NCBI RefSeq assembly: GCF_900450765.1
Contig: NZ_UGGU01000003.1
Coordinates: forward strand, 558,001-622,000
Direction of reading: 5' to 3'
DNA from: Fusobacterium necrogenes
GTDB taxonomy: Bacteria; Fusobacteriota; Fusobacteriia; Fusobacteriales; Fusobacteriaceae
DNA length: 64,000 nucleotides
The notes under the pieces are model-generated. The model saw only the letters and a program-made list of their open reading frames with translations, was not told the origin of the DNA and did no database searches. Made by a program: the position numbers and the translations under genes. Positions 27,481-40,652 of this stretch are shown here, in pieces. Position 1 is the first letter of the stretch. Every line of letters starts with the position of its first letter.

Positions 27481-27572
27481 GGAAGCGGGAGAAAACTGGT
27501 GTTTTCAGCAGTCTTCAAAACTGTAGGGTGGCTTAGGTCATTGGTAGGTTCGATTCCTACACGCTTCCGCCA
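27481..27572 (+). tRNA. selC: tRNA-Sec (anticodon TCA)
   Basis: Reads GGAAGCGG...CGCTTCCGCCA: acceptor arm GGAAGCG/CGCTTCC, encoded CCA, T arm GTAGG TTCGATT CCTAC, anticodon arm CAGT CTTCAAA ACTG with TCA, and the long extra arm expected of a Sec or Ser tRNA. It begins 1 base after the stop codon of the preceding gene, with no room for a promoter, so it must be excised from the sel mRNA. Confidence 0.97.
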
Positions 27573-34375: not shown

Positions 34376-34784
34376 TATAAATTTTCTGGGAATAAGAGAG
34401 AAAAATATTTATGGTGTACAAACTTATGAAGAGATGTGTGCATATATTAAGGAGAATTTAGCTAAAGATATTGATGTAACAATATATCAAAGTAATATTG
34501 AGGGAGAGATTATAAACTTTATACAAAGAGCATATTTAGAAAAGTATGATGGGATAGTAATAAATCCAGGGGCATATACTCATACTTCGATAGCTCTATA
34601 TGATGCTATAAAAAGTGTAGATATTCCAACAATAGAAGTACATCTCACAAATATTCATAAAAGAGAAGAATTTAGACATAAATCTTTCACAGCACCAGCT
34701 TGTATAGGACAAATTTGTGGATTAGGAAGTGATGGATATCTCTTAGCAATAGAATTTTTATATAAAAAATATACAAACAAATAG
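34347..34784 (+). CDS. aroQ: 3-dehydroquinate dehydratase, type II
   Basis: 145 residues. GTG 34347 gives MKVMVINGPNINFLGIRE with the catalytic Arg and Tyr (NIYGV) loop; Asn and His motifs INPGAYTHTSIAL and VHLTNIHKREEFRH follow. The type II fold matches the usual 145-150 length. The overlap with aroE suggests translational coupling. With AroB in the fusion at 20003, four shikimate enzymes are in the window. Confidence 0.95.
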   Translation: MKVMVINGPNINFLGIREKNIYGVQTYEEMCAYIKENLAKDIDVTIYQSNIEGEIINFIQRAYLEKYDGIVINPGAYTHTSIALYDAIKSVDIPTIEVHLTNIHKREEFRHKSFTAPACIGQICGLGSDGYLLAIEFLYKKYTNK

Positions 34785-34854
34785 ATTTATTTATGTTTGA
34801 AAAGTACTAAATATAAATTAAAAAATGATTAATATAGGAAAAAAAGTTTTTATT

Positions 34855-34883
34855 TTGACAAAAGTTTACTTTTATGATATTCT
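34855..34883 (+). promoter_or_regulatory. Promoter of the fhs-pur operon
   Basis: TTGACA (34855-34860), 17-base spacer, TATTCT (34878-34883), placing transcription start about 15 bases ahead of the riboswitch. Confidence 0.65.
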
Positions 34884-34906
34884 TTAGTATATAATAAAAA
34901 ATATAT

Positions 34907-34969
34907 CTCATATATACCTCTAATATGGAGAGGAGTTTCTACGGTTAACCTTAAATTAACTGCTATGAG
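34907..34969 (+). ncRNA. Purine riboswitch aptamer (guanine type)
   Basis: Matches the xpt-class fold: P1 CTCAT/ATGAG, P2 CCTCT (loop AATATGG) AGAGG, J2/3 AGTTTCTAC, P3 CGGTTAA (loop CCTTAAA) TTAACTG. The base at the specificity position (34963) before TATG is C, which in this class selects guanine or hypoxanthine over adenine. It lies in the leader of fhs-pur genes, so guanine would be expected to switch the pathway off. Confidence 0.93.
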
Positions 34970-34971
34970 TT

Positions 34972-35010
34972 AAAGGAAATGATGTTTGGTCATGCCTTCC
35001 TTTTTGGTAT
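34972..35010 (+). terminator. Expression-platform terminator of the riboswitch
   Basis: AAAGGAA (34972-34978) pairs with TTCCTTT (34997-35003), with an inner ATGA/TCAT pair, then TTGG. The T-run is short. It begins 3 bases after P1, as expected for a transcription-off switch. Confidence 0.65.
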
Positions 35011-35042
35011 ATATGAATTAAAAAAATGCTAAGGAGGAGAAA

Positions 35043-35162
35043 ATGCTGTTTGTTGATAAGAAAAGAAAAAAATTAAAAAATAGGTTAAAAAAAGTATTTA
35101 TCAACAAAGGCATAATTGTAAACCTAAGAGTAGATATAAATAATGGTCTAAGTGTGTACTGA
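35043..35162 (+). CDS. 39-codon leader ORF between riboswitch and fhs
   Basis: Translates as MLFVDKKRKKLKNRLKKVF... and ends ...NNGLSVY (39 residues, about a third Lys or Arg). Strong SD AAGGAGGAG lies 4 bases ahead of its ATG. I found it by reading; no family is known to me. Its TGA (35160-35162) lies in the loop of the hairpin 35145-35188, so ribosomes reaching the stop would cover the left arm. It may be a leader peptide that affects downstream transcription, or a small peptide of its own. Confidence 0.45.
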   Translation: MLFVDKKRKKLKNRLKKVFINKGIIVNLRVDINNGLSVY

Positions 35163-35195
35163 TGCAAAGCATGAGTGTGCGCTTAGACCTTTTAC
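35145..35195 (+). terminator. Second hairpin before fhs (terminator or attenuator)
   Basis: GGTCTAAG (35145-35152) pairs with CTTAGACC (35182-35189), followed by TTTTACTTT. The inside has a weak ATGC/GCAT pair. Situated after the riboswitch terminator and overlapping the end of the 39-codon ORF. Confidence 0.5.
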
Positions 35196-35222
35196 TTTAA
35201 AAGAGATTTTAAGGAGGAAAAT

Positions 35223-36887
35223 GTGAAAACAGATATTCAGATAGCTCAAGAGGCAAAAATAGTAAATATTTCAGAAATAGTAAAAAAGGTAGGACTTACT
35301 GAAGATGATATAGAGCATTATGGAAAATATAAAGCAAAAGTTAACCTTGATGTGTTAAAAAGATTAGAAAATAAAAAAGATGGTAAACTAGTATTGGTAA
35401 CAGCTATCACACCAACTCCAGCTGGGGAGGGAAAATCAACAGTTACAGTAGGACTTACTCAAGCTTTGAATAAATTAGGCAAATCTTCAGTAGCTGCTTT
35501 AAGAGAACCATCTCTTGGACCTGTATTTGGAATGAAAGGTGGAGCTACTGGTGGAGGATATGCACAAGTAATTCCTATGGAAGATATAAATTTACATTTT
35601 ACTGGAGATTTACATGCAATAGGAGTAGCACACAACTTAATAGCTGCTTGTATTGATAACCATATCAATTCAGGAAATTTACTAAATATAGATGTTACAA
35701 AAATCTCTTGGAAAAGAGTAGTAGATATGAATGATAGAGCATTAAGAGAAATAGTTATTGGACTTGGTGGAAAAGCTAATGGAATACCTAGAGAATCATC
35801 TTTTCAAATAACAGTAGCTTCTGAGATAATGGCAGCTCTATGTTTAGCAAACTCACTTATGGATTTAAAAGATAAAATTAGAAGTATGGTATTTGGATAC
35901 TCAAGAGATGGAAAAGCTCTTACAGTAGGAGATTTGAAAATAGAGGGGGCTGTAACTGCACTATTAAAAGAGGCTTTAAAACCCAACCTTGTTCAAACTT
36001 TAGAAAATACTCCAGTATTTATCCACGGGGGGCCATTTGCTAATATAGCTCATGGATGTAACTCAATCTTAGCTACAAAATTAGCATTAAAACTTTCTGA
36101 TTATGCTATAACAGAGGCTGGATTTGCTGCTGACTTAGGGGCAGAAAAATTCTTAGATATAAAATGTAGAAAAGGAAATCTAAGACCTAACTGTGTAGTA
36201 ATAGTAGCAACAGTAAGAGCTTTAAAACATCACGGAGGAGCTAAGGAGTTATCAGAAGAGAGCTTAGAAGCATTAGAAAAAGGAATAGCTAACTTAGATA
36301 AACATATAGAGAATATGAAAAAATATAACTTACCAGTTGTGGTAGCAATCAATAGATTTGTAAGCGACACTGAAAGAGAACTTGAATTTATTGAAAAGCA
36401 CTGTAAAGAGTTAGATGTACCAGTTGCTCTATGTGAGGTATGGGCAAAAGGTGGAGAGGGAGGAATAGCTCTTGCTAAAGAGGTAATGGCTCAATTAGAA
36501 AAAGAGACTGATAACTATACACCACTTTACTCATTAGATTTAAGTATAAAAGAGAAGATAGAAACAATAGCAAAAGAGATATATGGAGCTGATGGAGTAG
36601 AGTTTAGCTCTGGAGCTAAGAAGATGTTAAAGACAATAGATGAGCTAGGATATGGAAACTTACCAGTTTGTATGTCTAAAACTCAAAAATCTTTATCAGA
36701 TAATGCTTCACTAATAGGTAGACCAACAGGATTCACTGTAACAATAAATGAACTAAGAATATCAGCAGGAGCAGGATTTATAGTAGCTATGGCTGGAGAT
36801 ATAATAGATATGCCGGGACTACCTAAAAAACCAGCAGCAGAGTTGATAGATATAGATGAGAATGGAAGAATAGAAGGATTATTCTAA
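35223..36887 (+). CDS. fhs: Formate-tetrahydrofolate ligase
   Basis: Makes 10-formyl-THF from formate and ATP. 554 residues, normal for the family. ATP loop [12 protein letters not shown]; also [17 protein letters not shown]. Starts at GTG behind AAGGAGGAAAAT. Being first in a pur operon fits because PurN and PurH use the 10-formyl-THF. Confidence 0.97.
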
Positions 36888-36923: not shown

Positions 36924-39900
36924 ATGAATTACCGTATTTTTGTAGAAAAGAAATCAGGATTTGATTTAGATGCTAAAAGACTTGAGAATGAATTAAGAGA
37001 GAGTCTTCAATTAGAGGGGCTAGAAAAAGTAAGATTATTAAACTGTTATGATGTCTTTGGAATAGATAGTGAAGAGTTAGCAAAGGCTAAAAAACTTATA
37101 TTCTCAGAGGTAGTAACAGATAGAGTAACTGAAGAGTTAGACAGTAAAGGGTCAAAATACTTTGCTGTAGAATTTTTACCAGGGCAGTTTGACCAAAGAG
37201 CTGACTCAGCTATGCAATGTTTAAATCTAATCTCTGATAAAAACCAAAATGTAGTAGTAACAAGTGGAAAAGTTATAATCTTAGAGGGAAATATATCAGA
37301 AGAGGAGCTAAACAAAGTAAAAAATTACTATATCAACCCTGTGGAGATGAGAGAGAAAATTCTTAAGAAATTAGAGGTAGAAGAGGGAGAATTAGCTCAA
37401 GAAGTTCCTGTATTTGAAGGATTTATTACATATGGAGCTGAGAAGCTAGAAAAATTTAGAAAAGAGCTTGGATTAGCTATGACATTTGCTGATATAGCCT
37501 TTGTACAAGAGTATTTTAGAGATACGGAAAAAAGAGATCCAACTGAAACAGAGATAAAGGTATTAGACACTTATTGGTCTGACCATTGTAGACATACAAC
37601 ATTTGAAACTAAAATAAAAAATATTGTTTTCCCAAAATCAGCTTTTGGAGAAACATTACAAAAAGCTTTCGAAAACTATTTAGGAGCAAGAAAATTTGTA
37701 CATCAAGAAAGACTCGAAAAAAAATATATATCTCTAATGGATATGGCAACAATCTGTGGAAAAGAGATGAGAAAAACTGGTAAGCTAGATGACTTAGAGG
37801 TATCTGATGAGATAAATGCTTGCTCAGTATACATAGATGTAGATGTAGATGGAAAAATAGAAAAGTGGCTACTTATGTTTAAAAACGAAACTCATAACCA
37901 CCCTACTGAGATAGAGCCATTTGGAGGAGCTTCTACTTGTTTAGGAGGAGCAATAAGAGACCCATTATCAGGAAGATCTTATGTATACCAAGCTATTAGG
38001 GTAACAGGTTCTGGTAACCCATTGGAAAAATTAGAGGATACTTTACAAGGAAAATTACCTCAAAAGAAAATAACAACAGGAGCAGCAGCAGGATACTCAT
38101 CTTATGGAAACCAAATAGGACTTACTACTGGACATGTAGCTGAAATCTATCACGATGGATATAAGGCTAAGAGAATGGAAGTAGGAGCAGTAGTTGGAGC
38201 TGTGCCAGCTGATTGGGTAAGAAGAGAGAATGCTTCTAAGGGAGATATAGTTGTACTACTTGGAGGAAAAACAGGAAGAGATGGTTGTGGAGGAGCAACT
38301 GGTTCTTCTAAAGAGCATACAGATGATTCCTTAAGACTTTGTGGAGCAGAGGTACAAAAAGGAAATGCTCCAGAAGAGAGAAAAATCCAAAGATTATTTA
38401 GAAATCCAGAGGTTACAAGACTTGTTAAAAAATGTAATGACTTTGGAGCTGGAGGGGTATCAGTAGCAATAGGAGAGTTGGCTCCTGGACTAGATATCAA
38501 CTTAGATGTAGTTCCTACTAAATATTTAGGACTTAGTGGAACAGAGTTAGCTATCTCTGAATCACAAGAGAGAATGGCAGTAGTAATAGAGGCTAAAGAT
38601 AGAGATAAATTTATAGAATTAGCAAATAGAGAGAACTTACAAGCAACAGTTGTAGCAGTGGTTACTGACACAAATAGACTTGTGCTAAATTGGAAAGGTA
38701 AGAAGATAGTAGATATCTCAAGAGAGTTTTTAGATACTAACGGAGTTACTCAAGAAACAGAGGTAGAGGTAGAAAATATCTCTTATGAAGAAAGCCCACT
38801 TACAAAGGTAGCTTATGAGGGAGAGAATTTAGAAGCTAAATGGTACAATATGTTATCATCTTTAAATGTAGCTTCTCAAAAGGGACTTATGGAGATATTT
38901 GACTCTACAATAGGAGCTACTACAGTACTTATGCCATTTGGTGGAAAATATCAAATGACTCCAACAGATGTAAGCGTACAAAAATTACCATTACTTAAAG
39001 GGGAAACAGATACAGCTTCTGCTATCACTTGGGGATACAATCCAGTATTATCATCTTGGTCACAATTCCATGGTGGAGCTTATGCAGTAGTTGAATCATT
39101 AGCAAAATTAGTAAGTGTGGGAGTAGATTATAAGAGAGTAAGACTTTCATTCCAAGAGTACTTCCAAAAACTTGGACAAAATCCTAAAAACTGGGGAAAA
39201 CCTTTCTCAGCTCTATTAGGAACAATAGAGATGCAAAGAGCTTTTGAAATACCAGCTATTGGAGGAAAGGACTCTATGAGTGGAACATTTAATGATATTC
39301 ACGTTCCACCTACACTAATATCTTTTGCTGTATCTCCAGTAAAAGCTAGTGTAGTAATATCTCCAGAGTTTAAAAAGGCTGGAAACAAAATCTACTTAGT
39401 AAAACACCATATGTTAGAAAACTATATGCCTAATGTGGAAGAGTTAAAAGCAAACTTTGAATATGTATATGAAAATATAGTTAATGGAAATATAGTATCA
39501 GCTATGACATTAAAAACTGGTGGTATAGCTGAAGCAGTAAGTAAAATGACATTTGGAAACAGAATAGGAGCTAAGATATCTAATCTTGGAGATGAGTTAT
39601 TCAAGTTAGGATATGGAACATTTATAGTGGAGTCAAATGTAGAGCTTACAGGTAAAAATGTAGAATTATTAGGAGAAACAATCTCTGAATACAAAGTAGT
39701 AGTAGGAGATATTGAGATAGATATGACTGCAGGAGAGAAGGTATGGTTAGATAAACTATTCCCAGTTTTCCCTCATAAAACAGTAGAGAAAGTTGAAAAA
39801 TATATCTGGACTCCTTACAATGCTAAAGAGATAGTAGTTTGTAAAAATAAGATAGCTAAACCAAGAGTATTAGTACCAGCTTTCCCAGGAACAAACTGTG

Positions 39901-40652
39901 AATATGATTCAGCTAGAGTATTTGAAAAAGCTGGGGCAGAATCAAATATATTAGTATTTAGAAACCTAACTCAAGAGTATATCAATGACTCAATAGAAAA
40001 GGTGGTAAAAGAGATAAATAACTCTCAAATCCTAATGTTCCCAGGAGGATTCAGTGCTGGAGATGAGCCAGATGGTTCTGGTAAATTTATAGCAACAGTA
40101 CTTACTAACCCTAAAGTAGCAGAAGCTATCCATAAGTTCTTAGAGAGAGATGGACTTATATTAGGAATTTGTAATGGATTCCAAGCTCTTATCAAATCTG
40201 GATTACTTCCTTATGGAGAGATAGGTAAGGTTACTGAAGATTCACCAACTCTTACATTCAATAAGATAGGTAGACATATATCTCAAATGGTAAAAACTAA
40301 AGTAACTTCTAATAAATCACCTTGGCTTGCTGGAATAGAAACAGGTTTAGAGTTTGAAATAGCTGTGTCACATGGAGAGGGAAGATTCTTTGCTAGTGAT
40401 GAGGTAATTAAAAAGCTATTTGAAAATGGACAAGTGGCAACTCAATATGTCAACTTAGAGGGAGAGCCAACTAATGAGTTTAGATTTAACCCTAATGGTT
40501 CAAGCTTTGCTATTGAAGGAATTACTTCTCCAGATGGAAGAGTATTTGGTAAGATGGGACATACAGAAAGATATGGAAACAATGTATTTAAAAATATAAT
40601 TGGAAATAAAGAGCAAAAAATATTTGAAAATGGAGTAAAATATTTCAAATAA
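36924..40652 (+). CDS. purL: Phosphoribosylformylglycinamidine synthase, single-chain PurL
   Basis: 1242 residues: synthase and glutaminase in one chain, as in enterobacteria and many clostridia, so no separate PurS or PurQ is needed. N-terminal linker, two AIRS-like halves (DTYWSDHCRHTTF near 210, FGGASTCLGGAIRDP, GGKTGRDGCGGATGSSK, GGKDSMSGTF), and a C-terminal class I amidotransferase with PAFPGTNCEYDS and GICNGFQALI, in which Cys1083 is the nucleophile, and SHGEGRF. SD CAGGAGG. Confidence 0.97.
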   Translation: MNYRIFVEKKSGFDLDAKRLENELRESLQLEGLEKVRLLNCYDVFGIDSEELAKAKKLIFSEVVTDRVTEELDSKGSKYFAVEFLPGQFDQRADSAMQCLNLISDKNQNVVVTSGKVIILEGNISEEELNKVKNYYINPVEMREKILKKLEVEEGELAQEVPVFEGFITYGAEKLEKFRKELGLAMTFADIAFVQEYFRDTEKRDPTETEIKVLDTYWSDHCRHTTFETKIKNIVFPKSAFGETLQKAFENYLGARKFVHQERLEKKYISLMDMATICGKEMRKTGKLDDLEVSDEINACSVYIDVDVDGKIEKWLLMFKNETHNHPTEIEPFGGASTCLGGAIRDPLSGRSYVYQAIRVTGSGNPLEKLEDTLQGKLPQKKITTGAAAGYSSYGNQIGLTTGHVAEIYHDGYKAKRMEVGAVVGAVPADWVRRENASKGDIVVLLGGKTGRDGCGGATGSSKEHTDDSLRLCGAEVQKGNAPEERKIQRLFRNPEVTRLVKKCNDFGAGGVSVAIGELAPGLDINLDVVPTKYLGLSGTELAISESQERMAVVIEAKDRDKFIELANRENLQATVVAVVTDTNRLVLNWKGKKIVDISREFLDTNGVTQETEVEVENISYEESPLTKVAYEGENLEAKWYNMLSSLNVASQKGLMEIFDSTIGATTVLMPFGGKYQMTPTDVSVQKLPLLKGETDTASAITWGYNPVLSSWSQFHGGAYAVVESLAKLVSVGVDYKRVRLSFQEYFQKLGQNPKNWGKPFSALLGTIEMQRAFEIPAIGGKDSMSGTFNDIHVPPTLISFAVSPVKASVVISPEFKKAGNKIYLVKHHMLENYMPNVEELKANFEYVYENIVNGNIVSAMTLKTGGIAEAVSKMTFGNRIGAKISNLGDELFKLGYGTFIVESNVELTGKNVELLGETISEYKVVVGDIEIDMTAGEKVWLDKLFPVFPHKTVEKVEKYIWTPYNAKEIVVCKNKIAKPRVLVPAFPGTNCEYDSARVFEKAGAESNILVFRNLTQEYINDSIEKVVKEINNSQILMFPGGFSAGDEPDGSGKFIATVLTNPKVAEAIHKFLERDGLILGICNGFQALIKSGLLPYGEIGKVTEDSPTLTFNKIGRHISQMVKTKVTSNKSPWLAGIETGLEFEIAVSHGEGRFFASDEVIKKLFENGQVATQYVNLEGEPTNEFRFNPNGSSFAIEGITSPDGRVFGKMGHTERYGNNVFKNIIGNKEQKIFENGVKYFK

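Follow-up and report, generated by a model that had tools for sequence, protein, structure and literature searches.

A purine riboswitch followed by a leader ORF that runs into a terminator-like hairpin at fusobacterial purine operons

Textbook riboswitches act directly, their target being a terminator or the regulated gene's own start site; the transcription-terminating guanine riboswitches, such as B. subtilis xpt, are of this sort. In the E. coli pyrBI leader it is a trailing ribosome that prevents the intrinsic terminator of pyrL (PMC5021804), and low UTP slows the polymerase on this leader, which is 49% U (PMC10135430). For the B12 riboswitch of M. tuberculosis ppe2, translation of a uORF is needed if the downstream gene is to be expressed, mainly by termination-reinitiation at an overlapping stop and start; the same 2024 paper states that the effect of riboswitch-associated uORFs on expression had not previously been addressed (PMC11260477). 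Finally, the S. meliloti metA SAM-II leader combines a riboswitch-controlled SD with an intrinsic terminator (PMC9373788). Among open-licence papers we found neither a riboswitch that controls an intrinsic terminator by way of a leader ORF, nor a fusobacterial purine leader ORF of such a kind: a riboswitch combined with ribosome-mediated attenuation, which we did not find described, would be a new wiring.

The leader of fhs and purL

The window, by which we mean the whole 64-kb stretch of DNA that was analyzed, covers positions 558001-622000 of a 2.0 Mb genome; coordinates below are those of the window, and all features of the leader lie on its forward strand. (Elsewhere in the window, a selenocysteine tRNA gene at 27481-27568 (RF01852, 71.7 bits) was noted, suggesting selenoprotein synthesis in this organism.) The leader sits behind aroE-aroQ and in front of fhs (formate--tetrahydrofolate ligase, GTG start, 35223-36887; NCBIfam NF010030, 909 bits) and purL (phosphoribosylformylglycinamidine synthase, 36924-40652; NCBIfam TIGR01857, 1979 bits). 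A likely promoter, TTGACA-17-TATTCT with a TG before the -10 element, was picked by a consensus scan at 34855-34883 (10/12 matches); shuffled sequence yields similar numbers of sites, and the call is drawn from its position, which would likely start the transcript at ~34890, at the 5′ edge of the aptamer.

The purine riboswitch aptamer occupies 34888-34985 (Rfam RF00167, 64.9 bits against a gathering threshold of 37, E 4.6e-9): P1 pairs 34907-34912 with 34964-34969, P1-P2-P3 are present with their conserved junctions, and the other Rfam matches in 34780-35300 are two sub-threshold microRNA hits. Its J3-1 reads GCUAUGAG in the Rfam alignment, with the C of position 74 before UA. The guanine type assigned by the initial annotation is thereby upheld, and the aptamer is predicted to bind guanine. 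Three relatives carry a second purine aptamer between fhs and purL, the gene that follows it (L016, 3175-3272; L018, 3152-3249; L019, 1414-1511 on the minus strand), and in these the operon may be guanine-controlled twice. In genus g8, fhs has a ZMP/ZTP riboswitch instead (L023, L025, L027, L029, L073, L078, L084), and L025, L078 and L084 have a divergent purine riboswitch ahead of a gene that resembles a permease.

The initial annotation had also given the aptamer a terminator of its own, and this we could not sustain: the hairpin in question, AAGGAA..TTCCTT at approximately 34973-35002, reaches only -7.3 kcal and is followed by the tail TTTGGTAT, a poor terminator. It is not kept in the relatives L002, L003 and L005, and no aptamer-adjacent terminator is called in these three or in L006-L010. 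The consensus scan of the window, which also misses the hairpin that we describe next, lists no terminator after the aptamer.

Further downstream lies an ORF of 39 codons, MLFVDKKRKKLKNRLKKVFINKGIIVNLRVDINNGLSVY, that starts with ATG and ends with TGA (35043-35162; stop 35160-35162); a strong SD, TAAGGAGG, is placed 5 nt upstream of the start. An SD-led ORF with these coordinates had been annotated. The ORF enters the 5′ arm of a 45-nt hairpin, GGUCUAAGUGUGUACU..AGUGUGCGCUUAGACC (35145-35189, -26.3 kcal), which we call T2, and its stop codon is located at the apical end of T2, in agreement with the earlier placement of the stop in the hairpin loop. With its flanks (35135-35215) T2 reaches -31.8 kcal (z = -7.0; 0/200 shuffles as good). 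The annotated hairpin is thus sound, while the T-run that was claimed along with it is short and weak in the window: the U-rich tail, TTTTACTTTA (35190-35199), consists of TTTT at 35190-35193 and then ACTTT. Several relatives have TTTTTAAT or TTTTTATT at this place. We infer that T2 terminates transcription.

The ORF and T2 across Fusobacteriota

In 31 genomes from seven genera, the region before fhs had a T2-type hairpin with a U-tail, and an ORF running into it, every time; 29 of these 31 leaders pass a strict SD rule. PurL-headed operons supplied ten further leaders with an ORF into T2. In all 41 tabulated leaders, from 15 genera, the ORF has 16-60 codons and stops between -2 and +40 nt of T2, that is from 2 nt before the hairpin to its 3′ arm; a translatable ORF with its end overlapping the terminator is a mark of ribosome-mediated attenuation of the pyrBI kind, and all 41 have it. 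By the initial annotation's own terms, an ORF missing or a stop displaced in relatives would have counted against it; the tabulation shows neither, and the control of a terminator by riboswitch plus leader ORF that it proposed is strongly supported.

The ORF-T2 unit is also present in the purE-headed operons of g2, g4, g8 and g11, and in g17, which brings the total to 53 leaders in 20 genera (besides the 41, g17 and g4 each contribute four, g8 contributes two, and a single leader comes from g11 and another from g2); the 41 come from a scripted tabulation and the remaining 12 were found partly by reading the sequence. A g8 leader (L268) in which the frame, judged by eye, runs through and beyond T2 was left out of the count. 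The ORF is missing in g3 (L231) and in one g11 genome (L273), both with a conventional platform, and nothing was seen within the stretch read in g16, g19 and one g17 genome. Wherever it occurs, the unit heads a purine biosynthesis operon, and the annotated wording, fhs-pur, was too narrow, given that the first gene may be fhs, purL or purE. Leaders without an Rfam aptamer match keep the unit as well (L013, L014, L081, L082, L090 and g17).

Chance is a poor source of such leaders. Dinucleotide shuffles give an SD-led ORF that ends in the hairpin at a rate of about 1.7% per leader, and an open frame, given the start, at about 8%. Among 15 intergenic terminator-like hairpins of the window, a single one has such an ORF, and it is T2. 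As a control, scripts asked for a terminator in which an SD-led ORF of 12-70 codons ends; this arrangement is present in 35/36 aptamer-bearing purine-operon leaders, in 0/30 Bacillota purine riboswitches (24 of them with a terminator) and in 0/14 other fusobacterial purine riboswitches, the latter being nearly all from the window's genus and mostly before permease-type genes. We conclude that the leader arrangement is real, conserved and functional-looking.

Both arms of T2 carry a near-palindrome, AAGTGTRYACTT, conserved in g1 and g12, and we considered whether the arms are DNA operators bound by a repressor. This candidate was rejected, and we judge it very improbable: the stem sequence is fully changed across genera while the hairpin and its U-tail are kept (arms differ in g14, g13, g6, g9, g26, g4 and g8), which argues for an RNA structure, and matches elsewhere in the genome are no more numerous than those of a reversed-pattern control. 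An alignment of 13 sequences has 95.9% of its cells paired as T2 requires, as compared with at most 55.7% when the partner is slid; with so little sequence change, formal covariation is weak. A covariance model of T2 (R1) has strong matches only before fhs, one per genome, and the search for other genomic copies of the motif returned one near match, inside a coding region.

Another question is whether the peptide matters. Informative within-clade pairs mostly have a pN/pS of 0.27-0.6, pairs with 0-1 synonymous change being uninformative, and substitutions lean synonymous, as would be expected of a translated, weakly constrained peptide. Between genera, the leader peptides are unrelated in both sequence and length, so that it is the translation of the leader ORF, and not the identity of its product, that looks conserved. 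The mild purifying selection, together with the frequency of basic residues and the likeness, by eye, of the Leptotrichiaceae-side (f4) ORFs around RQxxxLSTLF, could be read as attenuation of the trp-type or stalling-peptide kind, in which a ribosome pause at particular codons or by the nascent chain sets T2. Such attenuation is improbable in our estimation: the genera have no run of codons in common at a set spacing from T2, as they would in an amino-acid (trp/his-type) leader, the peptide matches no protein family above cut-off, lengths range from 16 to 60 codons among unrelated sequences, and the RQxxxLSTLF motif may instead reflect an RNA hairpin, AGACAA..TTGTCT.

The last-named hairpin is internal to the ORFs of the second family (f4), and is shared, as is the motif like RQxxxLSTLF, by L215, L219, L220, L221, L217, L222, L279 and L280; it is possibly a transcription-pause hairpin that synchronises ribosome and polymerase. 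The window's leader ORF has an inverted repeat of its own, TTTGTTGATAA..TTATCAACAAA (35049-35059 and 35098-35108), and a shorter one, TTTGTTA..TAACAAA, is found inside the ORF in L002, L003 and L005; the repeat could be a pause or an anti-T2 element.

The same data bear on another proposal: that the ORF encodes a riboswitch-controlled small protein, with T2 as its terminator and fhs transcribed from its own promoter. A strong SD, a riboswitch in front and a terminator at the ORF's end would all suit a gene of this type, as would the spacing of ~400 nt between T2 and purL in g17. In the window, the gap from T2 to the fhs start is 33 nt, with no good promoter among the sites listed by the consensus scan. 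Since, moreover, no conserved protein is apparent, the stop falls within the terminator instead of ahead of it, and the unit always heads a purine operon, we regard the small-protein proposal as quite improbable.

Alternative folds between aptamer and ORF

Sequences on either side of the aptamer's 3′ end offer two folds. The strand UCAUAUAUACC (34908-34918), which overlaps P1/J1-2/P2 of the aptamer, is complementary in 11/11 positions to GGUAUAUAUGA (35006-35016); we name this pairing helix X. In the aptamer-forced fold, the leader ORF's SD region, AUGCUAAGGAGGA (35026-35038), is instead sequestered by an anti-SD strand, UCCUUUUUGGUAU (34998-35010). As GGUAU (35006-35010) is common to the 3′ strand of helix X and the anti-SD strand, the two folds are mutually exclusive. 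Forced-fold calculations, from which these accessibility figures derive, leave the window's SD unpaired at 0.21 with the aptamer forced and at 0.65 with helix X forced. All six members of the sub-clade (L001-L005, L011) keep the 11/11 pairs, and in each the SD opens, from 0.00-0.21 to 0.65-0.96. The energies in these six range from the alternative being favoured by 5 kcal to the aptamer being favoured by 3 kcal; in the window helix X is less stable than the aptamer fold by ~3 kcal, which means that the choice between them has to be taken as kinetic.

The sister sub-clade g1b has a different helix Y, fully paired in 6/6, which has its strongest effect on the AUG (unpaired 0.31-0.93 with helix Y forced versus 0.00-0.01); the aptamer fold is favoured there by 3-8 kcal, except in L010. 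When 36 aptamer leaders from all genera were folded unforced with P1 penalised, the SD became more open in 9 and less open in 13. Because this outcome is mixed, we restrict the claim of SD gating to leaders that have a conserved exclusive helix, and it is supported in g1, g21 and L218 alone.

In the forced folds, the SD that behaves as that of a translational riboswitch is the leader ORF's and not that of fhs: in the window's genus the platform seems to be a bistable translational switch aimed at the leader ORF SD. Two further leaders are instructive in this respect. The leader ORF of L216 has its SD beginning 1 nt past P1, and that of L079 has an SD overlapping the 3′ side of P1, so that no terminator fits between aptamer and ORF; along with the exclusive helices, this argues for translational control of the leader ORF, and hence of fhs-purL via T2. 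L216 and L079 are at the same time minimal riboswitch leaders.

The initial annotation had suggested that ribosome position on the ORF could control T2 without regard to guanine. With the riboswitch platform directed at the ORF SD, the parts would act in series in the window's genus, and here the claim is probably wrong. Series wiring is not universal: g14, g20, g24, g2, g4 and g11 have a separate U-tailed terminator between aptamer and ORF, that is, a guanine riboswitch of the transcription-terminating type, which the window's genus does not show. The claim of independence fits these genera, and those without an aptamer.

A proposed mechanism and its place among known systems

Computation shows the aptamer, the ORF and T2, that all three are conserved, and a pair of folds that exclude each other; we infer guanine binding, ORF translation, termination at T2 and occlusion by the ribosome, and consider it fairly probable that the guanine riboswitch acts via the translated leader ORF on the intrinsic terminator T2. 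With guanine bound, P1 would be stable and GGUAU (35006-35010) would be available for the anti-SD hairpin, which would hide the SD of the leader ORF; no ribosome would trail the polymerase, and T2 would fold and stop transcription before fhs-purL. Without guanine, GGUAUAUAUGA would invade the aptamer to form helix X and open the SD, upon which a ribosome could initiate on the 39-codon ORF and move to the stop inside T2. Positioned over the 5′ arm, it would block the terminator and allow fhs-purL to be transcribed, the leader peptide itself being a by-product. The size of a ribosome's footprint is such that the stop positions seen would let it cover the 5′ arm of T2.

T2 might, on the other hand, be set by a race between polymerase and ribosome in an independent attenuator resembling pyrBI, in which a scarcity of purine nucleotides would slow the polymerase on an A-rich leader, much as pyrL senses UTP (PMC10135430), so that the ribosome draws level with it and keeps T2 from forming, and in which the riboswitch is a separate input. 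The retention of ORF-T2 without an aptamer, or behind the separate U-tailed terminators of g14, g20, g24, g2, g4 and g11, speaks for this, as do its constant association with purine biosynthesis operons and its unconserved peptide. Composition agrees in part: A makes up 52% of the window's ORF as far as T2, and the A content of the ORF is at or above the 87th percentile of same-genome fhs windows in 16/19 leaders and exceeds T in 15/20 genera. A-richness fails, however, in g14, where three A-poor leaders fall in the 4th-5th percentile of fhs windows, and in g10 and g9; it could also reflect AT-rich genomes or Lys-rich peptides. There is no known pause site, and the riboswitch of the window's genus seems aimed at the ORF SD. 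We think an independent attenuator possible, though unlikely; it is compatible with the riboswitch-gated mechanism, and likelier where the aptamer is missing or has its own terminator. In genera of the latter sort, ORF-T2 is a second and possibly pyrBI-like attenuator in series, and the two devices probably sense different things.

Purine-nucleotide sensing by ORF-T2 is plausible as a second input. We tentatively entertain, as a doubtful generalization, a phylum-wide two-input purine attenuator: a guanine riboswitch combined with a peptide-indifferent ORF and terminator that would read the purine nucleotide pool via polymerase-ribosome coupling, the riboswitch in some genera only gating the leader ORF. 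Sensing of fMet/10-formyl-THF by the leader start codon was rejected: some operons begin with a gene other than fhs, and the feedback would have a positive sign. Should the riboswitch-gated mechanism be true, a disposable ORF would turn a translational riboswitch into a transcription-termination switch. Sensor and terminator could then evolve separately, which lineages with ORF-T2 but without an aptamer fit, and the leader would speak for a close coupling of transcription to translation in Fusobacteriota.

With the xpt type, the window's leader shares its aptamer class and purine gene target, and L231 (g3) looks xpt-type; it differs in that the window's genus has no conserved U-tailed terminator adjoining the aptamer; T2, placed at the ORF's end, begins 159 nt beyond the Rfam aptamer match. 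Like pyrBI, it has a leader ORF that runs into the intrinsic terminator of a nucleotide biosynthesis operon (PMC5021804, PMC10135430). Unlike pyrBI, which has been studied experimentally, the fusobacterial leader is known from computation alone; a riboswitch precedes its ORF, targeting the ORF SD in the window's genus, and it serves purine rather than pyrimidine synthesis, being A-rich, not U-rich, and not so in all genera. The metA SAM-II leader likewise has a riboswitch-controlled SD and then an intrinsic terminator before the start codon used (PMC9373788), but no separate leader ORF with its stop in the terminator, and its SD serves translation from AUG2. We regard the interplay of B12 riboswitch and uORF in M. 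tuberculosis as the nearest published case (PMC11260477): ppe2 and metE also have a riboswitch leader with a short ORF, translated there, but whereas the ppe2 coupling involves no intrinsic terminator, the window's ORF ends inside one, 60 nt before the gene.
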